24,651 nt of DNA from a virus: positions 1-24,651 of the IMG/VR virus record IMGVR_UViG_3300044626_000683; one strand, written 5' to 3'. The notes under the pieces are model-generated. The model did not search any database, was not told the DNA's origin, and saw only the letters and a list, made by a program, of their open reading frames with translations. A program made the translations under genes and the position numbers. Of this stretch, positions 1,780 to 24,651 are shown piece after piece (within the stretch, counting starts at the first letter, position 1; each line of letters starts with the position of its first letter).

Positions 1780-4055
1780 AAATTGCTGTAATTGATAAAG
1801 CCCCTAACAGAACCAGATATAAAGATTATTTTCAGTTTGACTTTGAGCATTTTCACATGAGTTCAAAGCCAATTACTAAATTGCTGAAAAAAGACGTTGA
1901 TCTTGATATAGATACTGATCTCTATGACCTAGTGATCTTGGTAGGTGCTGAAGCGGCTAAAGAATATGCCAAAATTACTAGTGTTACAAATTACGCAGGT
2001 CAATTAGTAAACGAAAAGTTTATACCTATTAGCAATCCTGCAATGCTGGCATTTAAGCCAGAGGGAAAACCAGACTTTGAACGTGCCCTAGACAAAATAC
2101 ACAAACATATTAACGGTGAAGTTAAGGGTGTTAAGCAAGGTGATTTTTGCGGTATTGACCGTGAAGAAGATGCTTATGCCTTTTTCCAAGAAGTCTTAGA
2201 AAATGCACAAGGTGTGGTTGCTATAGACACAGAAACTACAGGCCTATATCCCCGTGATGGATATGTACTAGGCGTTAGTATAAGTTATAAGCTAAATCAC
2301 GGCAGATATATTAGTTGTGATTGTATTGGTGAGAGTGCCTTTAAATTACTAGAAGAAATTTGTAGCCGTTTTACTATAGTCTTTCATAATATGAAATTTG
2401 ACTATAAAATGCTGAAATATCACCTAGGCCTAGACTTTGACCGTACACGAGTACATGACACTATGGTTATGCACTATGTGCTTGATGAAACTGATGGTCA
2501 TGGCCTAAAAGACTTAGCACTAAAATATACCGATTATGGTGACTATGACGCTAAACTGGATGAATTTAAAAAAGAGTACTGTCGTCAGCATGGTATGCTC
2601 AATGAGAACTTTACCTATGACCTAATTCCTTTTGACATTATCAGCGAATATGCTAGTATAGACACAGCAGTTACACTAGAGCTATTCAACAAGTTTTGGC
2701 CTATTGTTCAAAAGAATACTAACCTACATAAAGTATACACAGAAATCTTAATTCCAGGTACTCTATTCTTAATGGACATGGAAGAAGTAGGAATACCTAT
2801 TAGTCGTGAGCGTATGCAACTAGCAGATACTTACCTAACTACCAAGATTGAAGAAGCTAAACAGCATATTTATACTTTTGACGAAGTTAAGCTGTTTGAA
2901 AATAATGAACAGAAAATGTTCAATCCTAACAGTGTTATGCAACTGCGTAGTATACTATTTGATTATGTTGGATTAACACCAACTGGTAAGAAAACTAGTA
3001 CAGGTGCTATTAGTACAGATGCAGAAGTCCTAGAGCAATTGAGTGAAGAACATGAGCTTCCTAAAGCGATCCTACAAGTACGTAAACTATCCAAAATCCA
3101 AAACACATATATACACAAAATACTTCCTGAGCTTGATAGGGATGATAGGATTCGTACTAATTTTAATCTTATCTTTACCACTAGTGGCCGTCTTAGTAGT
3201 AGTGGAAAGTTTAATGCGCAACAGATACCGCGTGATGACCCTATTATCAAAGGTTGTATCAAAGCTCCAAGTGGCTACAAGATTGTTTCGCAAGACTTAA
3301 GAACTGCTGAAATGTATTATGCTGCTGTGCTCAGTGGAGACAAGAATCTGCAAAAAGTGTTTACTGATGGCGGTGACTTTCACAGTAGTATTGCTAAAAT
3401 GGTATTTGATTTACCCTGCGACGTTGAGCAGGTAAAAAAGATTTATCCAGATATGCGTCAAAGTGCCAAGGCTATTAGCTTTGGTATCTTGTATGGCAGC
3501 GGAGCAGATAAGGTTAGTGTAACAGTTACTAAAGCAACAGGTCAACACTACCCTGTAGATCGTGCCCGTGATGATATTAAGCAGTACTTTACAACTTTTA
3601 AGAAACTTAAACAGTGGTTAGATACCCGCAAAGAATTTATTCAACAAAATGGATATACTTACTCGTTTTTTGGCCGAAAAAGACGGCTTCCTAACGTATT
3701 CAGCAGTGACAAAGGAATCGCAGCCCACGAAGTACGAAGTGGAATTAATTCAGAAATCCAATCGCTGGCAAGTGACGTTAACCTACTCGGAGCTATTGGA
3801 ACTGCTAGAGAAATTATCGAGCGCGGACTTGACGCAAGAATCTTCATGCTTGTCCATGACTCAATCGTGGCACTTGTTAAGACCGAGCATGTAGAAAAAT
3901 ACTGTGACATTTTACGAAAAAATACTCAATATGACTGGGGCTGCAATATTAGTGGCTTTCCTATTGGTGTAGATCAAGACATTGGAGATGACTATAGCTT
4001 TGGACATTTTGAGGAAACCTACAGGACTGAAGGACTTAGTTTGGCCCGTATTTAG
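1776..4055 (+). CDS. DNA polymerase, family A (Pol I type) with 3'-5' exonuclease domain
   Basis: Replicative polymerase of the phage. The proofreading domain has Exo I (Asp151, Glu153 in IDTETTGL), Exo II (Asn205, Asp209 in HNMKFDYK) and Exo III (Tyr292, Asp296 in YASID). The polymerase domain has motif A with Asp507 and steric-gate Glu512 (QDLRTAE). Motif B has Arg561, Lys565, Phe569 and Tyr573 (RQSAKAISFGILYG). Motif C is VHDS with His694-Asp695. Phe569 aligns with E. coli Phe762, a residue class usually linked to virulent phages. Motif C has Ser696 where Pol I has Glu883. No 5'-3' exonuclease domain is fused; that activity is encoded separately at 10528. The 759-aa length is normal for phage Pol A. 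Codon use changes over about 3640-3910 (see findings). Confidence 0.95.
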   Translation: MKIAVIDKAPNRTRYKDYFQFDFEHFHMSSKPITKLLKKDVDLDIDTDLYDLVILVGAEAAKEYAKITSVTNYAGQLVNEKFIPISNPAMLAFKPEGKPDFERALDKIHKHINGEVKGVKQGDFCGIDREEDAYAFFQEVLENAQGVVAIDTETTGLYPRDGYVLGVSISYKLNHGRYISCDCIGESAFKLLEEICSRFTIVFHNMKFDYKMLKYHLGLDFDRTRVHDTMVMHYVLDETDGHGLKDLALKYTDYGDYDAKLDEFKKEYCRQHGMLNENFTYDLIPFDIISEYASIDTAVTLELFNKFWPIVQKNTNLHKVYTEILIPGTLFLMDMEEVGIPISRERMQLADTYLTTKIEEAKQHIYTFDEVKLFENNEQKMFNPNSVMQLRSILFDYVGLTPTGKKTSTGAISTDAEVLEQLSEEHELPKAILQVRKLSKIQNTYIHKILPELDRDDRIRTNFNLIFTTSGRLSSSGKFNAQQIPRDDPIIKGCIKAPSGYKIVSQDLRTAEMYYAAVLSGDKNLQKVFTDGGDFHSSIAKMVFDLPCDVEQVKKIYPDMRQSAKAISFGILYGSGADKVSVTVTKATGQHYPVDRARDDIKQYFTTFKKLKQWLDTRKEFIQQNGYTYSFFGRKRRLPNVFSSDKGIAAHEVRSGINSEIQSLASDVNLLGAIGTAREIIERGLDARIFMLVHDSIVALVKTEHVEKYCDILRKNTQYDWGCNISGFPIGVDQDIGDDYSFGHFEETYRTEGLSLARI

Positions 4056-4545
4056 ACTAGGCGAACGTGAGCCGCAGCAGCTAGGCGGCTTAATTTTTTA
4101 TAGTAAACAATATATAGATACCGACACAGTAACCTTTACACACAGGTATCGCGTAGTAGATGATAAAAATATTGATAAACCAACTCTTGGCTTACGCAGA
4201 TTACAGATAGGTAAAGAACTGTTTCCTATTGGTACAGCAATATATTTCTTACAAGATGTTATAAAATTAGCCAAGTCTACTACCTGGTTTATTGACAGCA
4301 GTGGACAACTATTTCAGCACAAAAAATCTACGCGCGCCAAGCTGGCTACATACAGGATCAAACAAGTTTTACCCGCGCAGGGCATAGGATGTGTGTTAGA
4401 AATTACAGGTCTAGCTGAACGCTTTAAAAGTCTACAAATACCAAAAGATACCGAGCCTTATGCAGGTATACTAACTTATAGCGGTAGCAATTTATTATAC
4501 GGATATTACAGTGAACCAATTAAAACAACCTGGAGACTAGTGTGA
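3988..4545 (+). CDS. Hypothetical phage protein downstream of polymerase
   Basis: A protein of about 185 aa with no motif I recognise. The frame is open from TTG 3982 (the longest form, 187 aa). The only ATG is 3988, inside the last 68 bases of the polymerase gene. A CTG at 4027 preceded by GAGG is another possible start, so the N-terminus is uncertain. The body has alternating hydrophobic and aromatic residues (GGLIFYSKQY, TYRIKQVL, AGILTYSGSNLLYGYY) suggesting a small mainly-beta fold, with no Cys pair, signal peptide or TM segment. Its last codons overlap the GTG of the UvsW-like helicase by 4 bp (GTGA), so it is translated with replication genes and probably serves replication. Codon use matches its neighbours. 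Confidence 0.72.
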   Translation: MTIALDILRKPTGLKDLVWPVFRLGEREPQQLGGLIFYSKQYIDTDTVTFTHRYRVVDDKNIDKPTLGLRRLQIGKELFPIGTAIYFLQDVIKLAKSTTWFIDSSGQLFQHKKSTRAKLATYRIKQVLPAQGIGCVLEITGLAERFKSLQIPKDTEPYAGILTYSGSNLLYGYYSEPIKTTWRLV

Positions 4546-13978: not shown

Positions 13979-14010
13979 AAAAAGCCCGCGATATGCGGGC
14001 TTTTATTTAT
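13979..14010 (+). terminator. Intrinsic terminator after the RNR operon
   Basis: AAAGCCCGC (13981-13989), loop GATAT, GCGGGCTTT (13995-14003), then TTATTTAT. A 9-bp GC-rich stem with flanking A and T runs. It lies between the 53-aa gene and the carbamoyltransferase, whose ATG follows at 14011. Confidence 0.88.
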
Positions 14011-15648
14011 ATGAGAATATTGGCTTTTAATATAGCGCACGATAGTTCAGTATGTGTTATTAACAATGGTATAATCGAATACTTTTGCAAAGAAGAACGG
14101 TTAAGTAGAGTTAAGCGAGACAAACATCCTTTTAAAGCATTAGAATTATATAAAAGTTTAAATTTAGGCAAAGTAGACTACGCATTATATAGTGTTCCTA
14201 GTAATGATGAATCTGATATAGAAATTACATATAAGCACTATATTAGAAAAATGTTTGGTGTTGAGCTAGAAAACTTTTCTAGTTTACTACATCACAGCTG
14301 TCACGCAAATTTAGCCTACTACAACAGCAAGTTTGATACAGCTTTGGTTTTTGTTATTGACAGAAATGGGTCAATATTTTTTGTAAATAGACATCCTGCT
14401 GCGCGTGAGTCTGAATCTGTATTTTTATTTACTAAAAATACTAGCAAAGCTATCTACAAACGTTTTTGGCTAAATGATAACTATCAAGGTCAAAAGTTAC
14501 TGATAGCACGCGAACTAGAGGGTTTTTATCCAGATTGTGATATAATGGCTAATACTCATATGGGTATAGTAAAAGTATACGAAGCAGCAACAACTCTTAT
14601 AGGTCAAAATGATTTGGAAAATGGTAAGACTATGGGTTTATCTGCCTATGGAAAAAATGATTTTGACTATAAACTTTTTGATAGTTATGGCAACCCACTA
14701 GATCACTTATTTACTACAGCACAACAAACCTGTTTCCTAGAATTACAGGACAAAACTGTTAATAAAATAACTACTGATAACTATGAATTTTATGCAGACA
14801 TTGCAAAACAAGTGCAACTTCAAACACAGTTTGTAGTTAAAAACTTAATAGAATACTATGTAAATAGTACAAATATTAACAATGTTTGCATTGTTGGTGG
14901 ATATGGTTTAAATATTGTAGCAAATAATTATTATATTAAAAGTATTCCAGGTGTAAATTTTTATTTTGAGCCTATATCAGACGATACTGGTGTACCTATA
15001 GGTGCTGCTATGTTAAAATATAACATGCTAACTAATAGGGTTCCTAAACCAATAGATAATAGCTTTTTTCACTACTACAACTACAACGAACCACTAACAC
15101 TTGGTAATAAAACTACACTAAAAGAATTGTGTAAACTTTTAGCAAATAAACAAAGTTTAGCTATTTTTGAAGGTCAGCCAGAATCGGGACCAAGAGCACT
15201 AGGACATAGATCAATATTATTTGATCCTAGGAACTTAGACGGAAAAGATCTGGTAAATAAAATAAAGCAACGAGAGTGGTATAGACCATTTGCAGCAGTA
15301 GTACTAGAAAGTGAATTTACAAAGTATTTTGATACACTAGGACTTGATAAGTCTAGGGATATGACTATAAACTTTGATGTAAAACCAGAATTTGCTGAAT
15401 ATATACCTAGTGTTATTCACGTAGACAATACATGTAGAGTTCAAACTGTATCCCATGGATTTTTATTTGAGCTACTATTAGAATTCTTTAACCAAACAGG
15501 TTGTCCAATACTACTAAACACAAGTTTAAATTTAGCAGGCGAACCACTAGCACAAACAAAAAATGATGCTATTAATATATTCAATAACAGTAGCTTAGAC
15601 GCAATTTATTTTGTAGACGATAATAAATTAATAAAAAAAGCCCAGTAG
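14011..15648 (+). CDS. Carbamoyltransferase, NodU/CmcH/TobZ family
   Basis: Predicted O-carbamoyltransferase: carbamoyl phosphate plus ATP give a carbamoyl-adenylate that is passed to a hydroxyl acceptor. The N-terminal Kae1-like domain has HDSS (10-13) and HHSCHA with His94 and His98, then Asp117 in VIDRNG. These have the spacing of the TobZ metal ligands (His114, His118, Asp137). The C-terminal YrdC-like domain begins with SGPRALGHRS and continues with NKIKQREWYRPFA. From ATG 14011 it is 545 aa, normal for the family. An in-frame ATG at 13993 lies inside the terminator stem and is rejected. There is no clear Shine-Dalgarno or promoter between terminator and ATG, so expression may depend on read-through. 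The acceptor is unknown; phage DNA bases (as 5-hydroxymethylcytosine derivatives) or a glycan are the two obvious options. Confidence 0.9.
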   Translation: MRILAFNIAHDSSVCVINNGIIEYFCKEERLSRVKRDKHPFKALELYKSLNLGKVDYALYSVPSNDESDIEITYKHYIRKMFGVELENFSSLLHHSCHANLAYYNSKFDTALVFVIDRNGSIFFVNRHPAARESESVFLFTKNTSKAIYKRFWLNDNYQGQKLLIARELEGFYPDCDIMANTHMGIVKVYEAATTLIGQNDLENGKTMGLSAYGKNDFDYKLFDSYGNPLDHLFTTAQQTCFLELQDKTVNKITTDNYEFYADIAKQVQLQTQFVVKNLIEYYVNSTNINNVCIVGGYGLNIVANNYYIKSIPGVNFYFEPISDDTGVPIGAAMLKYNMLTNRVPKPIDNSFFHYYNYNEPLTLGNKTTLKELCKLLANKQSLAIFEGQPESGPRALGHRSILFDPRNLDGKDLVNKIKQREWYRPFAAVVLESEFTKYFDTLGLDKSRDMTINFDVKPEFAEYIPSVIHVDNTCRVQTVSHGFLFELLLEFFNQTGCPILLNTSLNLAGEPLAQTKNDAINIFNNSSLDAIYFVDDNKLIKKAQ

Positions 15649-16328: not shown

Positions 16329-17549
16329 TTATCGCATACGATTGTCATCAATAAATTTAATTTCATCTACTAGAGCATCTGCATCCGTTTTAAAATTATT
16401 AAAGTCAGCTTTACTAATAGTCTTTAATAATTCTTCTAGTAGTTTTTGTGCTTCTTGATTATGTTCGTGCCTAGCAGCATATAACCAACGAAAAGCATTT
16501 TTATTATCAGCAACTTGTAAGTAGTATTTACCCAAATTTAGCATACTAGATACGTTGCGTTTCATTCCACTGTCTTTAAGGTCGCCTAAAATACTTTCTA
16601 TTTCGCTTTGGCTGCTTAATGGATCATTAAAAATCATAGTAGCTAATTTTTGATTAGCAGTTTCATTGACTTTAGCTGCATGCCGTAAAAATTGCATAGC
16701 TAAACTATGGCTTTCGTCTTTTACTAGGTCTACTATTTTTAATGCCGTTTCACTACTAACTTTTTGATGTATTTCTCTAAAAACAGCATACGCATAGGTT
16801 TTTAACTCATTGGGCAAGCTGCTTTTCTGTAACAAATTTATTAATTCATCTAGTGCCTTTTGATCGCCTTTTAGTGCACGCCACATAAATATTCTAGTAG
16901 CTGCACTATAATTACCGTCTTGTTTGAAAGTTATACCATCATTTAAACTACGATTTCTGGCTGCTTGATCATTAACTACGGCTGAAATTAATTCATTGTG
17001 TGTTTTTGCAGTGGATTTTTTAGTACTTTTGTTTAAGTGTGGGTTAGGTTCACTGCCCTCTATTACCACACTCCAAATTTCCATTGGTTCTACATTTTTA
17101 AATTCTTGCAAGCCACGACTAACAAATTTATAATCTTTTATTTTTGTACTAACTAGTCTATATACACTATCAGTTAATGTAACACCACCATAATCAGCAA
17201 GACTTTCTGTACGAGCTGCTAAGTTTACAGCATCACCCATTAAGTTAGTGCCATAGACCCAAACTTCGCCTACATGCATGCCTATACGCCAACGCATGCC
17301 ATTATTTAATTTGCGGATATGGTGTTGCATGTCTATGCCAAATCGCACTGCATCTACAGCACTGGCAAATTCAATGAGTACACTGTCTCCGCCTGTATTA
17401 AATAAACGTCCTCGATAAGTGTTTATTAATTCGTCAATAACAGCACGGCAAGCATCTAATTTAGCTAGTGTTCCTGCTTCATCACGCTGCATTAGGGTAC
17501 TATAGCCAATAACATCACTACAGATTATGGTGGCAAGTTTAGTTTCCAT
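16329..17549 (-). CDS. Class III nucleotide cyclase with C-terminal helical-repeat region
   Basis: Residues 1-165 are a class III (adenylate/guanylate-type) cyclase domain of the kind common in Alphaproteobacteria. Metal ligands Asp12 (CSDVIGYS) and Asp55 (GGDSVLIEF) and the transition-state pair Asn109 and Arg113 (VNLAART) are present, so the enzyme should be active. The two base-selecting positions are altered: Asn51 stands where adenylate cyclases have Lys, and Asn102 (TNLMGD) where they have Asp, so the product need not be cAMP. A Lys/Ser/Thr-rich linker (about 172-185) leads to a 220-residue all-helical region with Sel1/TPR-like stretches (LNLGKYYLQVADNKNAFRWLYAA). No TM segment or signal peptide: cytoplasmic. 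The start overlaps the preceding 62-aa membrane-protein gene by 11 bases. Cyclase fold is certain; substrate and role in infection are not. Confidence 0.92.
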   Translation of the reverse strand: METKLATIICSDVIGYSTLMQRDEAGTLAKLDACRAVIDELINTYRGRLFNTGGDSVLIEFASAVDAVRFGIDMQHHIRKLNNGMRWRIGMHVGEVWVYGTNLMGDAVNLAARTESLADYGGVTLTDSVYRLVSTKIKDYKFVSRGLQEFKNVEPMEIWSVVIEGSEPNPHLNKSTKKSTAKTHNELISAVVNDQAARNRSLNDGITFKQDGNYSAATRIFMWRALKGDQKALDELINLLQKSSLPNELKTYAYAVFREIHQKVSSETALKIVDLVKDESHSLAMQFLRHAAKVNETANQKLATMIFNDPLSSQSEIESILGDLKDSGMKRNVSSMLNLGKYYLQVADNKNAFRWLYAARHEHNQEAQKLLEELLKTISKADFNNFKTDADALVDEIKFIDDNRMR

Positions 17550-18730: not shown

Positions 18731-19033
18731 TTACTTTTTATCAGGTACTTTGTGTCCGTCTAATTTTTCGTGAACCTTAACTTCTTTACACACTTGTTCT
18801 GGCTTACCATCTTTGCCAATAACAGGCTTACCATCTTTTACTTTATCAATACAAGCCTTTTCTTTTTTAGCTTCTTCTTTTTTAGCAGGAGCCTTTTCTT
18901 CTTTCTTAGCTGGCTCATCCTTTTTAGCTTCTACTTTAGCTGGTGCTTTTTCTTCCTTTTTAACTGGATCAGCTGCTAATGCTGGTTGTATTAAAAGTGC
19001 TGAAGCTACAAATGCTAATAGAATTTTAGTCAT
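18731..19033 (-). CDS. Small exported Lys/Glu/Ala/Pro-rich protein
   Basis: A 100-aa protein with a textbook Sec signal peptide: TK, then ILLAFVASALLIQPALA, cleaved before or after Ala21 (PALAA/DP). The mature part starts with repeats of KKEEKAPAK type (about 25-58), an extended highly charged linker like those that span the periplasm in TonB or spanin proteins. It ends in a Gly/Lys domain with two Cys (ACIDKVKDGKPVIGKDGK ... QVCKEV) that could form a disulfide. AGGAAA precedes the ATG. Function unknown; predicted periplasmic. Confidence 0.8.
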   Translation of the reverse strand: MTKILLAFVASALLIQPALAADPVKKEEKAPAKVEAKKDEPAKKEEKAPAKKEEAKKEKACIDKVKDGKPVIGKDGKPEQVCKEVKVHEKLDGHKVPDKK

Positions 19034-19044
19034 ATAGTTTCCTA

Positions 19045-19497
19045 TTATAGTTCTGGAAATGGTTGTTGAGGAGGTGCGGCTTTGCCGCCAAACCCAACAG
19101 TTACTTGATTGCCGCCAGTTGATGGTGCTATGCTTATGCTGCCGTTGTTACCTAGGGTAACCATAGGAGTAGACATAGGTGGTGGGCTTGGTGGCTTATC
19201 CCAACCTTTATTTGCAGCTTGTAGGGCTGCTTTTTGAGCTTCCTTATCACCACTAGCTAACATAATACCACTAAGAGTACCTGTTAAAAAAGTAGCTATA
19301 GGAATAATCAATTCAAAAAATTTGTTATCTACAGGGCTAATACCATTCATAGGTTGTGTTACAAATATTAAGCTGTAGAGTACTACAAATACGATACCAA
19401 ATAATGTTAATGCTAGTACCATACCTATAAAAAATTTAAGCCTAGCCATTAACTCATCTTCAGTATAGCGCGGGCCTTCCCATAGGTCTTTAATCAT
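19045..19497 (-). CDS. Two-TM membrane protein, holin-like
   Basis: A 150-aa protein. A charged N-terminus (KDLWEGPRYTEDELMARL) is followed by TM1 at about 21-46 and TM2 at about 61-82 (LIIPIATFLTGTLSGIMLA). The C-terminal tail from about 84 is Lys/Ala then Pro/Gly-rich, carrying SPPPMSTP and a QVTVGFGGKAAPP end. Two TM helices with a short loop and a soluble tail fit a class II holin, but the tail is long and no endolysin is visible in the window, so this is only a suggestion. The ATG overlaps the lipoprotein stop by 4 bp. Confidence 0.75.
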   Translation of the reverse strand: MIKDLWEGPRYTEDELMARLKFFIGMVLALTLFGIVFVVLYSLIFVTQPMNGISPVDNKFFELIIPIATFLTGTLSGIMLASGDKEAQKAALQAANKGWDKPPSPPPMSTPMVTLGNNGSISIAPSTGGNQVTVGFGGKAAPPQQPFPEL

Positions 19498-19739
19498 TTA
19501 CAATCCTTTGCTGCTTGAACTGGGGTTGATGTTGGTAATTTATTGTTATTATTTACACGATCTTTTTCGTATGGTGTTAAATCTTCAGGACAAGTGCCAT
19601 TAGCACTACAATAGGGTCGTTTACATACCTTATGATCCCAGTTATCTGGATTTTGGCAAGGATACCTGTACATATCGCTACAACCAGATACTAATAGCGC
19701 AATAAGTATTACTAACCTAACCACGGAATCCACATCCAA
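19494..19739 (-). CDS. Small Cys-rich lipoprotein
   Basis: Signal peptide with lipobox VSGC; the lipidated Cys is residue 20 if ATG 19739 is used, or 15 if the in-frame GTG 19724 is used, which gives a tighter signal peptide. Ser follows the Cys, so Lol sorting predicts the outer membrane. The mature part has five more Cys (RYPCQNPDNWDHKVCKRPYC, GTCPED, DCK), probably paired by disulfides. I recall similar 'YPCQxPxNWxxxxCKxPxC' lipoproteins in other phages, function unknown. It overlaps the end of the DUF4337-like gene and the start of the two-TM gene. A small outer-membrane lipoprotein could be an o-spanin, although Rz1-type o-spanins are Pro-rich and not Cys-rich. Confidence 0.82.
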   Translation of the reverse strand: MDVDSVVRLVILIALLVSGCSDMYRYPCQNPDNWDHKVCKRPYCSANGTCPEDLTPYEKDRVNNNNKLPTSTPVQAAKDCK

Positions 19740-20239
19740 AGAGCTTGACTAACTATTAGTGCACCAGCTACACCTACTACGGTACTTACATAAAACATAG
19801 CCATACTAGCAGCTAATATACTGGCCGTTAATAATACAATGCTAATTTGTAGTATACTGCCGCCCCAAGTAAACCAAGGACTACGCTTTTTAGCCTCATC
19901 ACGCTCTGCTTCTAGTGCCTTGGCTTTTTCCATAATCTCTTTTTTATCGTCACTCATGCGTTTAGCTTCTGCTAAAAACTTATCACGATTTTCGGGTTTG
20001 CTAGCTTCAGCAGCACTTATTTCGTATAGTACGCCACGAACATTTTTAGCCTGATACCATGCCCACATATTATTAGCTTGTATGGTATTATTTTGTATTT
20101 TACTGCTGTTACTACCACCTATCATTGTATTTATTGCTAGTAGTGCTGCTAAAAATACAATAACAAAACCTGCTTTGTCCTTAATTTTAGCTTCTTTTTC
20201 ACTACGTGTTAGTGGTTTAACTTCTACTTTTTCAGTCAT
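19712..20239 (-). CDS. DUF4337-like membrane protein
   Basis: A 175-aa protein matching what I know of the DUF4337 family. A basic N-terminus leads to TM1 (about 24-42, FVIVFLAALLAINTMIGGSN), then the family box NNMWAWYQAKNVRGVLYEI (57-74). A charged coiled coil follows (about 80-120), with TM2 (about 128-149) and TM3 (about 151-170) at the end. Function of the family is unknown. It follows the TM/coiled-coil gene by 9 bases with an AAGGG ribosome site, and its end overlaps the lipoprotein gene by 13-28 bases depending on the start used. Confidence 0.82.
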   Translation of the reverse strand: MTEKVEVKPLTRSEKEAKIKDKAGFVIVFLAALLAINTMIGGSNSSKIQNNTIQANNMWAWYQAKNVRGVLYEISAAEASKPENRDKFLAEAKRMSDDKKEIMEKAKALEAERDEAKKRSPWFTWGGSILQISIVLLTASILAASMAMFYVSTVVGVAGALIVSQALWMWIPWLG

Positions 20240-20248
20240 ACTATACCC

Positions 20249-20914
20249 TTATTTATTGGCTAGTGGATTATCTAATGCCTTTTTGAGATCTTCATTGATC
20301 TTCTTATCAAGTGCCTTAAGTTTAGCATCTACTTCTCTATTATTAGCAGCAATAGCTTTGGCATTATCAGCACTCATTTTATTCATTTCTTTTGTGGCAG
20401 CGTTAAGTGATTGATCTGCAGCTTTTTGTATAGATCTAACTTCAACTTTAATTTCCTGCACAGTTTTATCTATTTCGCGCTGTTGAGTTTTATTGCTAGC
20501 TTCTACGGCTTCAACAACTTTTTCAAGTCTGCGTATATCGCCTTTAAGATCGTTTTTAATATCACGAGTATATTCTGCTGTTTTATCACTACCTTCCTGT
20601 ACAGCCTTAGCCGTTTTTGTAGAATTTTCTTCAATAACGGCTAATCGCTTATCAAATTCGCTAAAATCTGGTGCTACATACTCAGCAATCTTCTTTTTCA
20701 TGCCAATATAGTCTTTATATACTTCAAAAGCACCATACAGTGCACCAAGCACGCTACTCAATAATGTAGCTACAACCATTAGTTTAGCAGGCGTAAAATC
20801 ATACCCACCTACACTAATAACAGTATCTTTACTAGCATACTTTTTAGCGGCAGCTTCTAGCTCATCTACTTTCTTATCTAAGTTTACTTTTTCTTCACTC
20901 ACGGCTACCTCCAT
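20249..20914 (-). CDS. Membrane-anchored coiled-coil protein
   Basis: A 221-aa protein. A short N-terminal amphipathic segment (1-30) precedes VGGYDFTPAKL, then one TM helix (about 43-63, KLMVVATLLSSVLGALYGAF). About 150 residues of highly charged coiled coil with no Pro follow (85-215), rich in Lys, Glu, Asp and Ala. No Cys. The layout (N-terminal membrane anchor, long periplasmic or cytoplasmic helix) recalls i-spanins and phage membrane tethers, but it is longer than Rz. It starts 10 bases inside the end of the 791-aa exported-protein gene. Confidence 0.78.
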   Translation of the reverse strand: MEVAVSEEKVNLDKKVDELEAAAKKYASKDTVISVGGYDFTPAKLMVVATLLSSVLGALYGAFEVYKDYIGMKKKIAEYVAPDFSEFDKRLAVIEENSTKTAKAVQEGSDKTAEYTRDIKNDLKGDIRRLEKVVEAVEASNKTQQREIDKTVQEIKVEVRSIQKAADQSLNAATKEMNKMSADNAKAIAANNREVDAKLKALDKKINEDLKKALDNPLANK

Positions 20915-23280
20915 TGTTGGTCTATCATCTGCTGGTGCAGCTGGTCACTACGTAAGTTTTGCAGTGCACGTCTGTTATCTACAGTACGTTGATTACGATA
21001 AATTTCTTTTGGGGCATAAAATGCTACATCTTTTAGTGCAATATTGTAGGCATTAAACCCTACAGGTACAACTGCTATACTGTTAATATCAACACCGCCC
21101 GCAACTTCATTATTTTGAGTATTACGATTTACTGCTGCTAAATTTGTTTCTATTCTTTGTTCTGCAACTGTTGGCTTACTATCAATAATATCATTGATTG
21201 GATTTGTTTTATCTGTAGTAAAATTTCTTTGTTGTTGTGGTTGTTCTGTTTCTGTTACTGCTACCGGTGCAGCTGGTTGAGATAATGTTTGTGTAGTGTT
21301 TTCTAGCGTACTTGTAGGTGCTTGTAGTGGTAATGTACCTGCAGAAGATGCTGCATATGCCTGCTGTACTTCTGATATAACTGGTTGTATAAATACGGAT
21401 GATTGTTCCTGACTGCTAAATGTGAATGTTTGTTCTTGTTTTTCTTCTTGAGTTCTTGTTGGATTTACAGGCGGCAAATTTGGTAACACAACCGCTAGTT
21501 CTACTGATTTAAACATAGCATTTGGCATTAGTATTTGTGCTGCTGATTCTATGGTTATGGGTGTCGCTGATGTTGCTTGTATAGGCAATTCTTCTCTGTT
21601 AGTAGTCGCTATTTGTTGGGCAGATTGAGTAAATGGTTGAGCAATAGAACTTGTAATATTGGACAGGTTTATTCTGCTTACTTGAACATTAATTGTTGAA
21701 ATTTGCTCATTTTCTTGTGTGCCAATACTTGAAGCTGTACTTGTTTGAATATTATTACTATCTGCTATACTTTCTGCTTCTTTGATAGACGAGCTGGCTG
21801 TTTTATTAGCTTCAACAATAGCACGTTGTGCTAGTGATAATGATCTTGTATTTTGATTAGCATTTCTTGTAAGCACGGCAGGTATTTCTGTAGCTACTAA
21901 TTGTTGAAGGCTTTGGGTAGCATCTATTCTATTATTTTGTTGTGTTGATTCGTTAATAGTGGTAACAGTCACTGATGGATTAGTTGAATTAACATCATTT
22001 AATGTCACAATAACTGATCCACTAGGAGTCAATGAAGTACTTGATGGATTTAATGCTGCAATCTTTTCTTGCTGTGCTTTAATATCAGCAACAACTTGAG
22101 TTAGTGTTTGTTGAAAGTTACTACAATTAGGACTATATAAACCATTGGTATAACAAGGATCAGGTGTCCATATAGGTCTAGTCCAACCTACCCAACCAAA
22201 ATGATTCCAAACATCACTAGCCCACCATTGCACTGAGCCCATATCTAAACTATTCTTAGATTCAGTGAACAGGTGTCTTGAACTAAAACTACCAGCATTA
22301 TTGTTACCACCTACATACCATTGTTGCTGAAGCATAGTTGTATTATTTTTATCACTTATTCTAAAATTAATATTACCTCCACCATCTGTTCTCCAATCTG
22401 TACACCAGAACATAAATGTATTATAACATGCTCCATAGTTATACCAATTGAAGCCATAGTCATATCCATGCAATACAACACCTCCACCTATATGTGGTAA
22501 TGATTGCGCTATATTATAACTGTAATAGAAAGTAGGACTTTTACTACCTTGTAAAATATTTTGAAATCCAGGGCAGCTTGGATTAAATGCAGGATTAAGT
22601 ATGCAAGGATCAACACTATAGTTTAACTTTATGTAGGCATCTTTAATCTGAGGACCATAACAGTCTGGATTACATGCCCAATATCCTGCATCCATGCCTG
22701 TTATACTTAATCTAGCTGAACCGACTAAATTAATGCCTTTAGGATTAGCAAAAGTATACGTTTCAGCTAATTGTTGCCATGTTGGATTATATGCTGGATT
22801 GCCATCATTAATATTTTTCAATCCTAATTGATGAACATTAGTGGCTTCTACTGTTCCGTTCGGCGCACTATATGTAAATGTTGCATTTAAATTATCTTGA
22901 ATTGTTCCTGTTTCACATGTTAGTCCTACTGCTTGGGCACATTGAAATCTATATTTGAAACCATACATGATACTTGTAGCAAATACAGCACTTGTGTTTT
23001 GGTATCCAAAATTAATAGTATTTAAGTTTATATTTTGCTGTATAGTACCAGATGCGTAACTAAAAATATACCCATCTGGCGTATAAGATCCGGTCATACC
23101 AGAAGTAGTCCAACCAGTTCCAGACGTCATAGTTGGATTTTGTATTAAGTTACCAGTTTGCCCATCAATACTATAACCACTTGGTGTATTAGGTGAAGTT
23201 TGGCTATGTACGAATCCAGGCAATATAGCTATAATCATTAATGTAGCTAATATAGACCAGACTATTAGTTTATCTTTCAT
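20905..23280 (-). CDS. Large exported protein: signal peptide, jelly-roll-like N-domain, conserved C-tail
   Basis: A 791-aa protein with a Sec signal peptide (about 1-26, LIVWSILATLMIIAILPGFV then HS/Q). The mature N-terminus (NLIQNPTMTSGTGWTTSG) is typical of carbohydrate-binding jelly-roll domains. Two related Cys motifs, DPCILNPAFNPSCPGF (about 224-239) and DPCYTNGLYSPNCSNF (about 378-393), flank a Trp/Tyr/Gly-rich region (about 243-375). Residues about 395-690 are low-complexity Ser/Thr/Gln/Asn, predicted disordered or fibrous. The last about 70 residues (AGGVDINSIAVVPVGFNAY, then FYAPKEIYRNQRTVDNRRA) look like a compact conserved domain. No enzyme motif seen. Signal peptides are unusual for virion proteins, so it probably acts in the periplasm, envelope or outside the cell. 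Confidence 0.82.
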   Translation of the reverse strand: MKDKLIVWSILATLMIIAILPGFVHSQTSPNTPSGYSIDGQTGNLIQNPTMTSGTGWTTSGMTGSYTPDGYIFSYASGTIQQNINLNTINFGYQNTSAVFATSIMYGFKYRFQCAQAVGLTCETGTIQDNLNATFTYSAPNGTVEATNVHQLGLKNINDGNPAYNPTWQQLAETYTFANPKGINLVGSARLSITGMDAGYWACNPDCYGPQIKDAYIKLNYSVDPCILNPAFNPSCPGFQNILQGSKSPTFYYSYNIAQSLPHIGGGVVLHGYDYGFNWYNYGACYNTFMFWCTDWRTDGGGNINFRISDKNNTTMLQQQWYVGGNNNAGSFSSRHLFTESKNSLDMGSVQWWASDVWNHFGWVGWTRPIWTPDPCYTNGLYSPNCSNFQQTLTQVVADIKAQQEKIAALNPSSTSLTPSGSVIVTLNDVNSTNPSVTVTTINESTQQNNRIDATQSLQQLVATEIPAVLTRNANQNTRSLSLAQRAIVEANKTASSSIKEAESIADSNNIQTSTASSIGTQENEQISTINVQVSRINLSNITSSIAQPFTQSAQQIATTNREELPIQATSATPITIESAAQILMPNAMFKSVELAVVLPNLPPVNPTRTQEEKQEQTFTFSSQEQSSVFIQPVISEVQQAYAASSAGTLPLQAPTSTLENTTQTLSQPAAPVAVTETEQPQQQRNFTTDKTNPINDIIDSKPTVAEQRIETNLAAVNRNTQNNEVAGGVDINSIAVVPVGFNAYNIALKDVAFYAPKEIYRNQRTVDNRRALQNLRSDQLHQQMIDQQWR

Positions 23281-24651
23281 CGAAACCAGCCTACCTGTTT
23301 ATGTTCTTTAGGCACTTCAGTTTCCGTTTTATAGTCATATTGTGGAATTTTATGTGGGTTTGCCATCCAAAGCTCTTTAGCACGCTCACCGATTTGACCT
23401 TCATAAGGACATGGAGTTCCAGCTGCCATCATTGCCTCAAATACACGACGATCTTGGCACATCGTAGCAACAGCAGCAACCTTCATACCCATATCAAAAA
23501 GAGTCTTGGATAACTTTAAGCGTTCACAATTCAAGTCACGTTGTGTGCCGCCTAGTGCCATACCTACTATTTGTGTTTGTATAGCTCCACTGCTACCAGT
23601 AGTACACAAGTCCTGGCCTCCGCCACTCATCATTGCTGGTGCAATAGCAGTAGGAGGTGGCTGTATTACACGTTGTGTTATATTAGTTTCGTTAATATTT
23701 TTATTAGTATTATCAGAAATTACCTTTTGATCACTATTACTGTAAGCATTAGTAAAACTAGAACTTTGATTTACATTTAAATTGTTTGTTGTAGCTGTAG
23801 TTTGATTAATATTACGATTGGTCATATCACCAGTTTGAATGTTATTATTTGTGCTAACACTAGTAGAAGTATTTTGATTTACGTTTGTATTTACGCTGGT
23901 ACTATTATTTGTATTATTAGTAGTAGAGTTACTTGTAGATGTACTAGCATTATTGTTGTTGTAGGTCATTGTGCCAGTATTAATATTATTGTTTGTATTA
24001 ACACTTGTAGACGTACTAGCATTGTTATTATTGTAAGTCATTGTGCCAGTATTAATATTATTGTTTGTATTAACACTTGTAGAATTATTAGTATTTACAG
24101 CTGTACTTGCTGATACATTATTATTATTAAATGTTTGAGTACCACTATTAATATTGTTATTAGTATTAACATTAGTACTATTAGATGACGATATACTAGC
24201 GTTATTGTTATTGTAAGTCATTGTGCCAGTATTAATATTATTGTTTGTACTAACGCTCATATTGTTTGTAGTGCTTGAGCTTGTACTTTGATTAATATTA
24301 GTATTTGTAGCTGTGCTTACATTATTATTATTAAATGTTTGTGTGCCAGTATTAACATTATTGTTATTATAGGTAACTGTACCACTCATAACATTGTTGT
24401 TATTATTAGTTACTGTGCCGCTTTGTATATTATTATTTGTATTTACATTGCTGCTTGTGCTAGTGCTTGTATTAACATTATTGTTAATATTTGTAGAATT
24501 GCTATTTACAGTACTAGTATTAACATTATTACTAGTACTAGTAGAAACATTATTAGTTGTTACACTACTAGTACTATTAGACGTAGAATTAGTATCTACT
24601 AGACTTTTAGAATCGTAAGCACCTTGATTTAATGGATTAATTGTACTAGTT
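23277..24651 (-). CDS. Asn/Thr/Ser-rich repeat protein with Cys-containing C-terminal domain (5'-partial)
   Basis: The frame has no stop up to the window edge: 87 further in-frame codons lie upstream of the ATG at 24389, so that ATG is an internal Met and the real start is beyond 24651. The visible 457 residues begin with INPLNQGAYDSKSLVDTNST. They continue as a low-complexity Asn/Thr/Ser region carrying at least seven copies of an [ST]GTxT[YFN]NNNN[VA] unit. The end is a different, folded domain of about 125 residues with four Cys (GGGQDLC, DLNCERLKLSKTLFDMGMK, MCQDRRVFEAM, GTPCPYEGQIG). The Asn ladder resembles amyloid or beta-solenoid fibres such as curlin, but the repeat is not the curlin consensus. 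The stop overlaps the start of the 791-aa exported protein by 4 bp. Confidence 0.85.
   Translation of the reverse strand, partial: TSTINPLNQGAYDSKSLVDTNSTSNSTSSVTTNNVSTSTSNNVNTSTVNSNSTNINNNVNTSTSTSSNVNTNNNIQSGTVTNNNNNVMSGTVTYNNNNVNTGTQTFNNNNVSTATNTNINQSTSSSTTNNMSVSTNNNINTGTMTYNNNNASISSSNSTNVNTNNNINSGTQTFNNNNVSASTAVNTNNSTSVNTNNNINTGTMTYNNNNASTSTSVNTNNNINTGTMTYNNNNASTSTSNSTTNNTNNSTSVNTNVNQNTSTSVSTNNNIQTGDMTNRNINQTTATTNNLNVNQSSSFTNAYSNSDQKVISDNTNKNINETNITQRVIQPPPTAIAPAMMSGGGQDLCTTGSSGAIQTQIVGMALGGTQRDLNCERLKLSKTLFDMGMKVAAVATMCQDRRVFEAMMAAGTPCPYEGQIGERAKELWMANPHKIPQYDYKTETEVPKEHKQVGWFR
23940..24440 (-). repeat. Coding tandem repeats, [ST]GTxT[YFN]NNNN[VA] units
   Basis: Imperfect DNA repeats inside the Asn-rich gene. 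The best copies, read on the + strand, start near 23949, 24020 and 24201 and share the core GTCATTGTGCCAGTATTAAT. More diverged copies with AAATGTTTG in place of GTAGGTCATTG lie near 24120-24150 and 24320-24360, and two more near 24365-24435. The unit length is irregular because Ser/Thr/Asn linkers of varying length separate the cores. Confidence 0.85.

Follow-up and report, generated by a model that had tools for sequence, protein, structure and literature searches.

A candidate exported envelope module of aquatic phages pairs an Asn-rich repeat protein with a sugar-binding-type partner

Introduction

What is the Asn-rich repeat protein encoded at one end of IMG/VR record IMGVR_UViG_3300044626_000683, and what might it do for the phage that carries it? 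The analysis covered a 24.6-kb virus record (positions 1 to 24,651, hereafter the window) whose replication genes encode a DnaB-type helicase, primase, PolA-type polymerase, SbcCD-like proteins, dUTPase and ribonucleotide reductase. Its polymerase shares ~48-49% identity with its counterparts in Vibrio and Enterobacter phages such as Thalassa, which we take to be T5-like, and on that basis we label the window phage T5-like. A preliminary description of the repeat gene, here called gene A, had proposed an exported beta-solenoid or amyloid fiber ending in a four-Cys domain, with phage curli in mind; our analysis confirmed what it had observed and supported its interpretation in part. Gene A belongs to a family that is widespread in unrelated aquatic phages and apparently undescribed, and it is almost without exception followed by a second gene, B. 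Together with a third gene, C, these are tentatively read, at a little less than even confidence, as an envelope or surface module, encoded by the phage and exported through Sec, that is made late in infection and does not supply virion parts.

Gene A is predicted to be exported and ends in a conserved cysteine domain

No start codon precedes the end of the window in the open reading frame of gene A, in agreement with the earlier remark that the gene runs off the window with its N-terminus unseen. Compared with L013 and L014, two relatives that are 88-91% identical to it, the window protein is ~37 N-terminal residues short; in L013 and L014 that portion holds a signal peptide and a short linker. 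A predicted Sec signal peptide stands at the start of complete relatives: 163 of 172 sequences passed an automatic check, and of the nine that failed, one was the truncated window protein and the others were signal-peptide-like by eye. These data support the earlier proposal of an exported protein.

The phrog_20531 profile matched window gene A (E 6.8e-11) across both the repeat and the Cys region and represents the gene's own family, as 48 of 51 aligned members match it (best E 2.8e-18). PHROGs lists this family as of unknown function and describes no structure or operon for it, unlike the account given here. Gene A matched no Pfam family at E<=1, and its profile found no match among PDB sequences. 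All four cysteines noticed in the preliminary description are invariant in 51 aligned homologs, and purifying selection acts on the Cys domain, with nonsynonymous polymorphism (pN) of 0.06-0.12 against synonymous polymorphism (pS) of 0.49-0.85. In an AlphaFold model computed from the window protein and 41 relatives, the domain was helical, with a predicted local distance difference test score (pLDDT) of ~70-92 across residues 391-440. A compact folded end is therefore strongly indicated, in which disulfide bonds could form in the periplasm. A hydrophobic C-terminal tail, for example GIGALLGVLVHKLF, occurs by simple count in 71 of 181 unique A proteins (L045, L047, L168 and L176 among them), whereas window A has a polar tail; phages may therefore differ in whether A attaches to a membrane.

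The family is large. Scanning IMG/VR with repeat patterns gave 322 confirmed relatives, and scanning with Cys-domain patterns gave at least 520, on records of up to 352 kb. Carriers include T4-like phages (DNA polymerase B adjacent), Kyanoviridae (Mosig), Autographiviridae and the T5-like window phage, as well as podo- and jumbo-phages; the module is best read as mobile. By tblastn, 11 annotated phage records carry A, including the Pelagibacter phages HTVC202P, HTVC115P, HTVC023P, HTVC033P, Mosig and Baldr and two roseophages, and in all 11 the protein consists of a signal peptide, only a short N/T/S linker and the Cys domain. Our literature search found no published account of the family. A scan of bacterial genome contigs returned 21 matches, all on contigs of metagenome-assembled genomes or uncultured assemblies; a bacterial origin of A was considered and rejected, these matches probably being binned phage sequence.

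The repeat region keeps a two-residue register

Residues 1-320 of window A are 33% Asn and 71% Asn, Thr and Ser combined, so that the "Asn/Thr/Ser-only" background reported earlier was right in its emphasis if a little too absolute: Val, Ile, Gln, Gly, Tyr and Met occur there too. The same description had counted at least seven [ST]GTxT[YFN]NNNN units; we found exactly seven matches to [STQ]GTxT[YFN]NNN[NV], at protein residues 77, 89, 101, 141, 169, 201 and 225, while 1000 shuffles of the region gave a mean of 0.001 and a maximum of 1. The units differ mostly at synonymous sites, which argues against a fresh DNA duplication; their low pN is built in by construction, since they were picked by amino-acid pattern.

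A periodic signal extends beyond these units. In 115 long members, self-identity was in excess at lags 12, 24 and 2, and across lags 1-39 every even lag lay above the shuffle except 6 (-0.01) and every odd lag lay below it. In 87 non-redundant sequences, one parity held 92% of Thr and 91% of Ile and the opposite parity 92-99% of Gly, Met and Tyr; Thr parity exceeded the 99th percentile of shuffles in 87 of 87, and the distance between consecutive G-units was an even count of residues in 540 of 543 cases. TxT recurred regularly at 12-residue spacing, with T/V/I on one parity. Internal indels among close relatives were even in 179 cases and odd in 35, two-residue events being far commoner than one-residue events. 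This register is strong sequence evidence for beta-strands, and its natural reading would be selection that keeps the two faces of the strands separate, to which slippage of six-base units could have contributed.

The AlphaFold model agrees in outline: residues 105-296 form a solenoid of strands 9-10 residues long with a 12-residue period, at a pLDDT mostly of 50-69. Foldseek returned nothing below E 1 for the gene A model, and the VIA list for this low-confidence model was headed by SufB/SufD beta-solenoids (Z ~15), a resemblance that we read as one of two-sheet solenoid arrangement only and not of kinship. The earlier beta-solenoid idea is thus well supported by the register and modeled, at low confidence, with 12-residue strands. 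Together, these data strongly indicate a register-locked beta-structure for the long N/T/S stretch of A, probably a stalk of solenoid-like form. Several relatives have instead a short linker without the register, so that the exported Cys domain is the constant part of the protein and the repeat an optional addition. The module also offers a natural experiment on the sequence rules of Asn/Thr beta-structures.

Gene B places a sugar-binding-type head on a constant tail

B proteins share a layout of signal peptide, head, low-complexity or acidic linker, and a constant C-terminal tail, FYxPKEIYxxQxxxDN. Window B carries an FBA/Fbs1-like, galactose-binding-type head (residues ~30-222) with the motif D197-A-G-Y-W, followed by a second beta domain. 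The head model superposed on the sugar-binding domain of Fbs1 (1umh/2rj2) with Z 15.7 and a root-mean-square deviation of 2.4-3.0 over ~155-160 residues. At the sequence level, the B family profile matched FBXO6 (E 4.5e-5), and PF04300 was matched with E 2.6e-4 by the best of 39 B members, window B itself having no Pfam match. An aromatic-Trp pair, [FYW]W, is present in 85 unique B proteins (Y200-W201 in the window) and aligns with the FBXO6/FBXO44 motif, matching Tyr279-Trp280 of Fbs1. In Fbs1 these two residues stack on the disaccharide of N-acetylglucosamine, GlcNAc-GlcNAc (PMC4603797). The fold and aromatic pair of a eukaryotic N-glycan-binding protein thus occur in a phage protein. B and the FBA domain of Fbs1/FBXO2 have in common the fold and a D-x-x-[FYW]-W-x-G-x-YGP motif that includes the GlcNAc-stacking pair; unlike Fbs1, B comes from a bacterial virus, is predicted to be exported, lacks an F-box and has a large linker and tail, and its sugar binding is putative. 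Other phages place nidogen-like or CBM4/9-like heads on the B-type tail, the head types having been counted as regex classes. Sequence comparison thus indicates a sugar-binding-type head that varies between phages on a constant tail.

The pairing with A is tight. Of 111 unique cases in which B was found by its own search, 107 had A at most two genes upstream, and the A-B gap fell in the range of -70 to +20 bp for 101 of 116 pairs, the reading frames usually overlapping or abutting. C follows B in most loci and ends in NPLA(N); short homologs of C also come after B in pelagiphages. A-B or B-C fusions, sought as proof of interaction, were not found. Matches of C to ZorA in a defense library were rejected as coiled-coil noise.

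A tentative model and its alternatives

Under the envelope-module reading, the head of B would grip an envelope glycan (peptidoglycan, lipopolysaccharide or surface polysaccharide), C would tether the assembly to the inner membrane and A would act as its spacer or extension, so that the envelope or debris of the infected cell might become coated around the time of lysis. For the function of such an assembly we infer receptor masking, a lysis aid or adhesion. The likeliest benefit would be the masking of phage receptors, giving superinfection exclusion and fewer progeny lost on debris; direct help in outer-membrane lysis would rank second. The best precedent for this benefit is Llp of T5, an exported lipoprotein that blocks phage receptors (PMC4728585). 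The likeness is one of proposed role, with no known sequence relation, and Llp differs in being a single small lipoprotein. If the reading is correct, late remodeling of the host cell's surface or envelope would be widespread among aquatic phages. Few large multi-domain phage proteins are known to be exported. A bolder version, which we regard as possible but rather unlikely, is that A-B-C is a new, horizontally mobile system by which infected cells come to bear a beta-solenoid structure (possibly amyloid) with lectin heads, either outside the cell or across its envelope. Such a system would use no curli export machinery and would be shared by T4-like, T5-like, podo- and jumbo-phages of fresh and marine waters. 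The A versions of cultured pelagiphages (HTVC023P, HTVC202P, HTVC115P, HTVC033P, Mosig and Baldr) are short ones, and localization and function can therefore be tested in existing laboratory systems.

Late timing is supported by the T4-like loci, in which the late-promoter sequence TATAAATA stands before 10 of 24 distinct A genes and before 21 of 452 other reading frames. Several points weigh against this reading. The late-promoter comparison draws on related sequences, and its significance is therefore inflated. By hidden Markov model, B follows A in 97 of 143 unique A loci, although the remainder include divergent B-like genes. FBG3 has the same aromatic pair as Fbs1 yet binds no sugar (PMC4603797), so the pair is no proof of lectin activity in B. 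The topology of C is ambiguous by the charge bias of the window copy, the AlphaFold model of the repeat lies under pLDDT 70, and the even-residue indels could partly reflect hexanucleotide slippage. A recognized lysozyme was present in only 12 of 74 complete neighborhoods in a limited search, which makes the link between the module and lysis genes a partial one.

That partial link bears directly on the idea, improbable in our estimate, that A, B and C are lysis accessories that would disrupt the outer membrane or peptidoglycan in the periplasm alongside endolysin and spanins. In 13 non-redundant loci, among them L017 and L026, close relatives of the window, genes for i-spanin-like and o-spanin-like proteins and a GH19 endolysin immediately precede A; the arrangement belongs to one lineage and speaks for the envelope-module reading as well. 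In the marine locus L192, A-B-C is followed by Rz-like, Rz1-like and T4-type lysozyme genes, the last three named by eye. The layout of C is i-spanin-like and the head of B has a GlcNAc-GlcNAc-binding fold, but the phages in question already have separate spanin-like genes, most loci are not next to recognized lysis genes, and A, B and C contain no enzymatic domain. Also unlikely is a curli-like functional amyloid in which secreted A would form extracellular cross-beta fibers, either clumping cells together ("sibling capture") or acting as a shield for the infected cell. Curli clusters (CsgF-CsgG-CsgA/B) are indeed present in pelagiphages, and such aggregation or shielding has been proposed for them (PMC9599517, PMC7029224). 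A has in common with curli and type VIII secretion that it is phage-encoded and Sec-exported, with Asn-rich strand-turn repeats and a class III cyclase nearby. Its 12/24-residue period and modeled strands (pLDDT 50-69, two-sheet solenoid) can be set beside the curli coil of ~22-24 residues. However, A lacks the curlin consensus, as the preliminary description had itself stated (no PF07012 repeat in a Pfam scan at E<=1), its repeats are unlike the real curlins of phage HTVC008M, and it has a Cys domain and a lectin-type partner. CsgG (PF03783) was found in 0 of 86 A-bearing records with positive controls, many of these records, the window's included, being fragments, and A, B and C profiles had no match within the first 50 kb of HTVC008M. 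The cyclase of the HTVC008M curli cluster is longer and of membrane type, whereas that of the window is without those membrane domains. CsgG-bearing (16) and A-bearing (11) phage records showed zero overlap, in a sample too small to establish mutual exclusion. The repeat is also not the conserved part of A, and Melnitz, which bears curli pore genes, gave no clumping (PMC9004378). The curli connection drawn earlier was therefore rejected, the curlin repeat being absent from A and CsgG from the 86 records.

A role of A and B as a virion tail fiber or adhesin appears quite unlikely because both carry signal peptides, in essentially all complete relatives. Repetitive beta-structure with a glycan-binding-type head is typical of fibers, and tail-fiber-like genes (cluster 24, with a Laminin_G_3 domain) lie upstream in some loci; against this, the membrane protein C shares the operon, and the neighbors are polB, lysis or terminase genes depending on the phage. 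Neither of the two observations that the preliminary description had named as fatal to its own proposal was made: relatives start with a signal peptide and not with a virion-attachment domain, and none of the annotated phage homologs of A is called a tail fiber. Insect antifreeze solenoids present T-x-T motifs on one face, and by analogy A might bind ice, chitin or another regular surface through a Thr array, as the 12-residue TxT spacing and the single parity of T/V/I would allow. We consider this very improbable: A has no similarity to antifreeze proteins beyond the analogy, the ice-binding protein among the listed folds had a poor score (Z 3.6), and many marine relatives lack the repeat. 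That the repeat is meaningless low-complexity sequence left by DNA slippage is hardly credible, even though it is N/T/S-rich, Tandem Repeats Finder reports arrays of 24-72 bp, and six-base units would likewise yield even-residue indels. The synonymous divergence of the units, the register kept in all 87 sequences and the conservation of flanks and Cys domain speak against it, as does the Asn run after GxxT[YF], which is four residues long in 344 of 392 cases despite slippage-prone AAT runs.

Neighboring genes and further observations

The features of the module and the genes that frequently follow it are listed in Table 1.

Table 1. Features of the A-B-C module and adjoining genes in the window.
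Feature	Position	Strand	Remarks
Gene A, 3' 457 codons	23277..24650	-	Open reading frame, open at window end; phrog_20531 match
N/T/S-rich region of A, residues 19-320	23691..24596	-	Alternates every two residues, with T/V/I mostly at one parity and S/G/M/Y at the opposite one
Seven [ST]GTxT[YFN]NNNN units, residues 77-244	23919..24422	-	Spacings 12, 12, 40, 28, 32, 24
Modeled strand array, residues 105-296	23763..24338	-	AlphaFold; ~14 consecutive strands
Conserved Cys domain, residues 331-431	23358..23660	-	C349, C375, C398, C414; mainly helical
Gene B, 791 aa	20905..23280	-	Predicted exported; 4-bp ATGA overlap with A
Gene C	20249..20914	-	One membrane segment and coiled coil; ends NPLANK
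DUF4337 membrane protein	19712..20239	-	PF14235 (E 1.7e-31); synteny; frequent follower of C
Small lipoprotein	19494..19739	-	LVSGC lipobox; frequent follower of module
Two-segment membrane protein	19045..19497	-	phrog_25359; frequent follower of module

Further downstream, between the module and phoH, the window encodes a 100-aa exported, Lys/Glu/Ala-rich low-complexity protein (18731-19033, minus strand) whose synteny with the module is conserved. The class III adenylate/guanylate cyclase gene (16329-17549, minus strand; PF00211, E 1.4e-10) also lies downstream, and about ten non-redundant loci have a related cyclase close to A-B-C, in most cases on the opposite strand. A carbamoyltransferase gene (13993-15648, plus strand) matches PF16861 and PF02543; pelagiphage HTVC008M is also annotated with a carbamoyltransferase.

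Other loci have companions of their own. In L244, a D-alanyl-D-alanine carboxypeptidase with a signal peptide is encoded near the module (3340-4074, minus strand; Peptidase_S11, E 2.5e-32), and relatives of it occur in ~12 loci. In the marine loci L155, L168 and L176, A-B is followed by three small exported proteins (genes +2 to +4 after A) that start VPIMGTVTSKCVIYTE, HQFLPTYPKFQ and SLNLALPSAPGSYQSDRFRAGELDCS; these have a pilin-like look and no Pfam matches, and in L155 and L168 gene C is placed after them.

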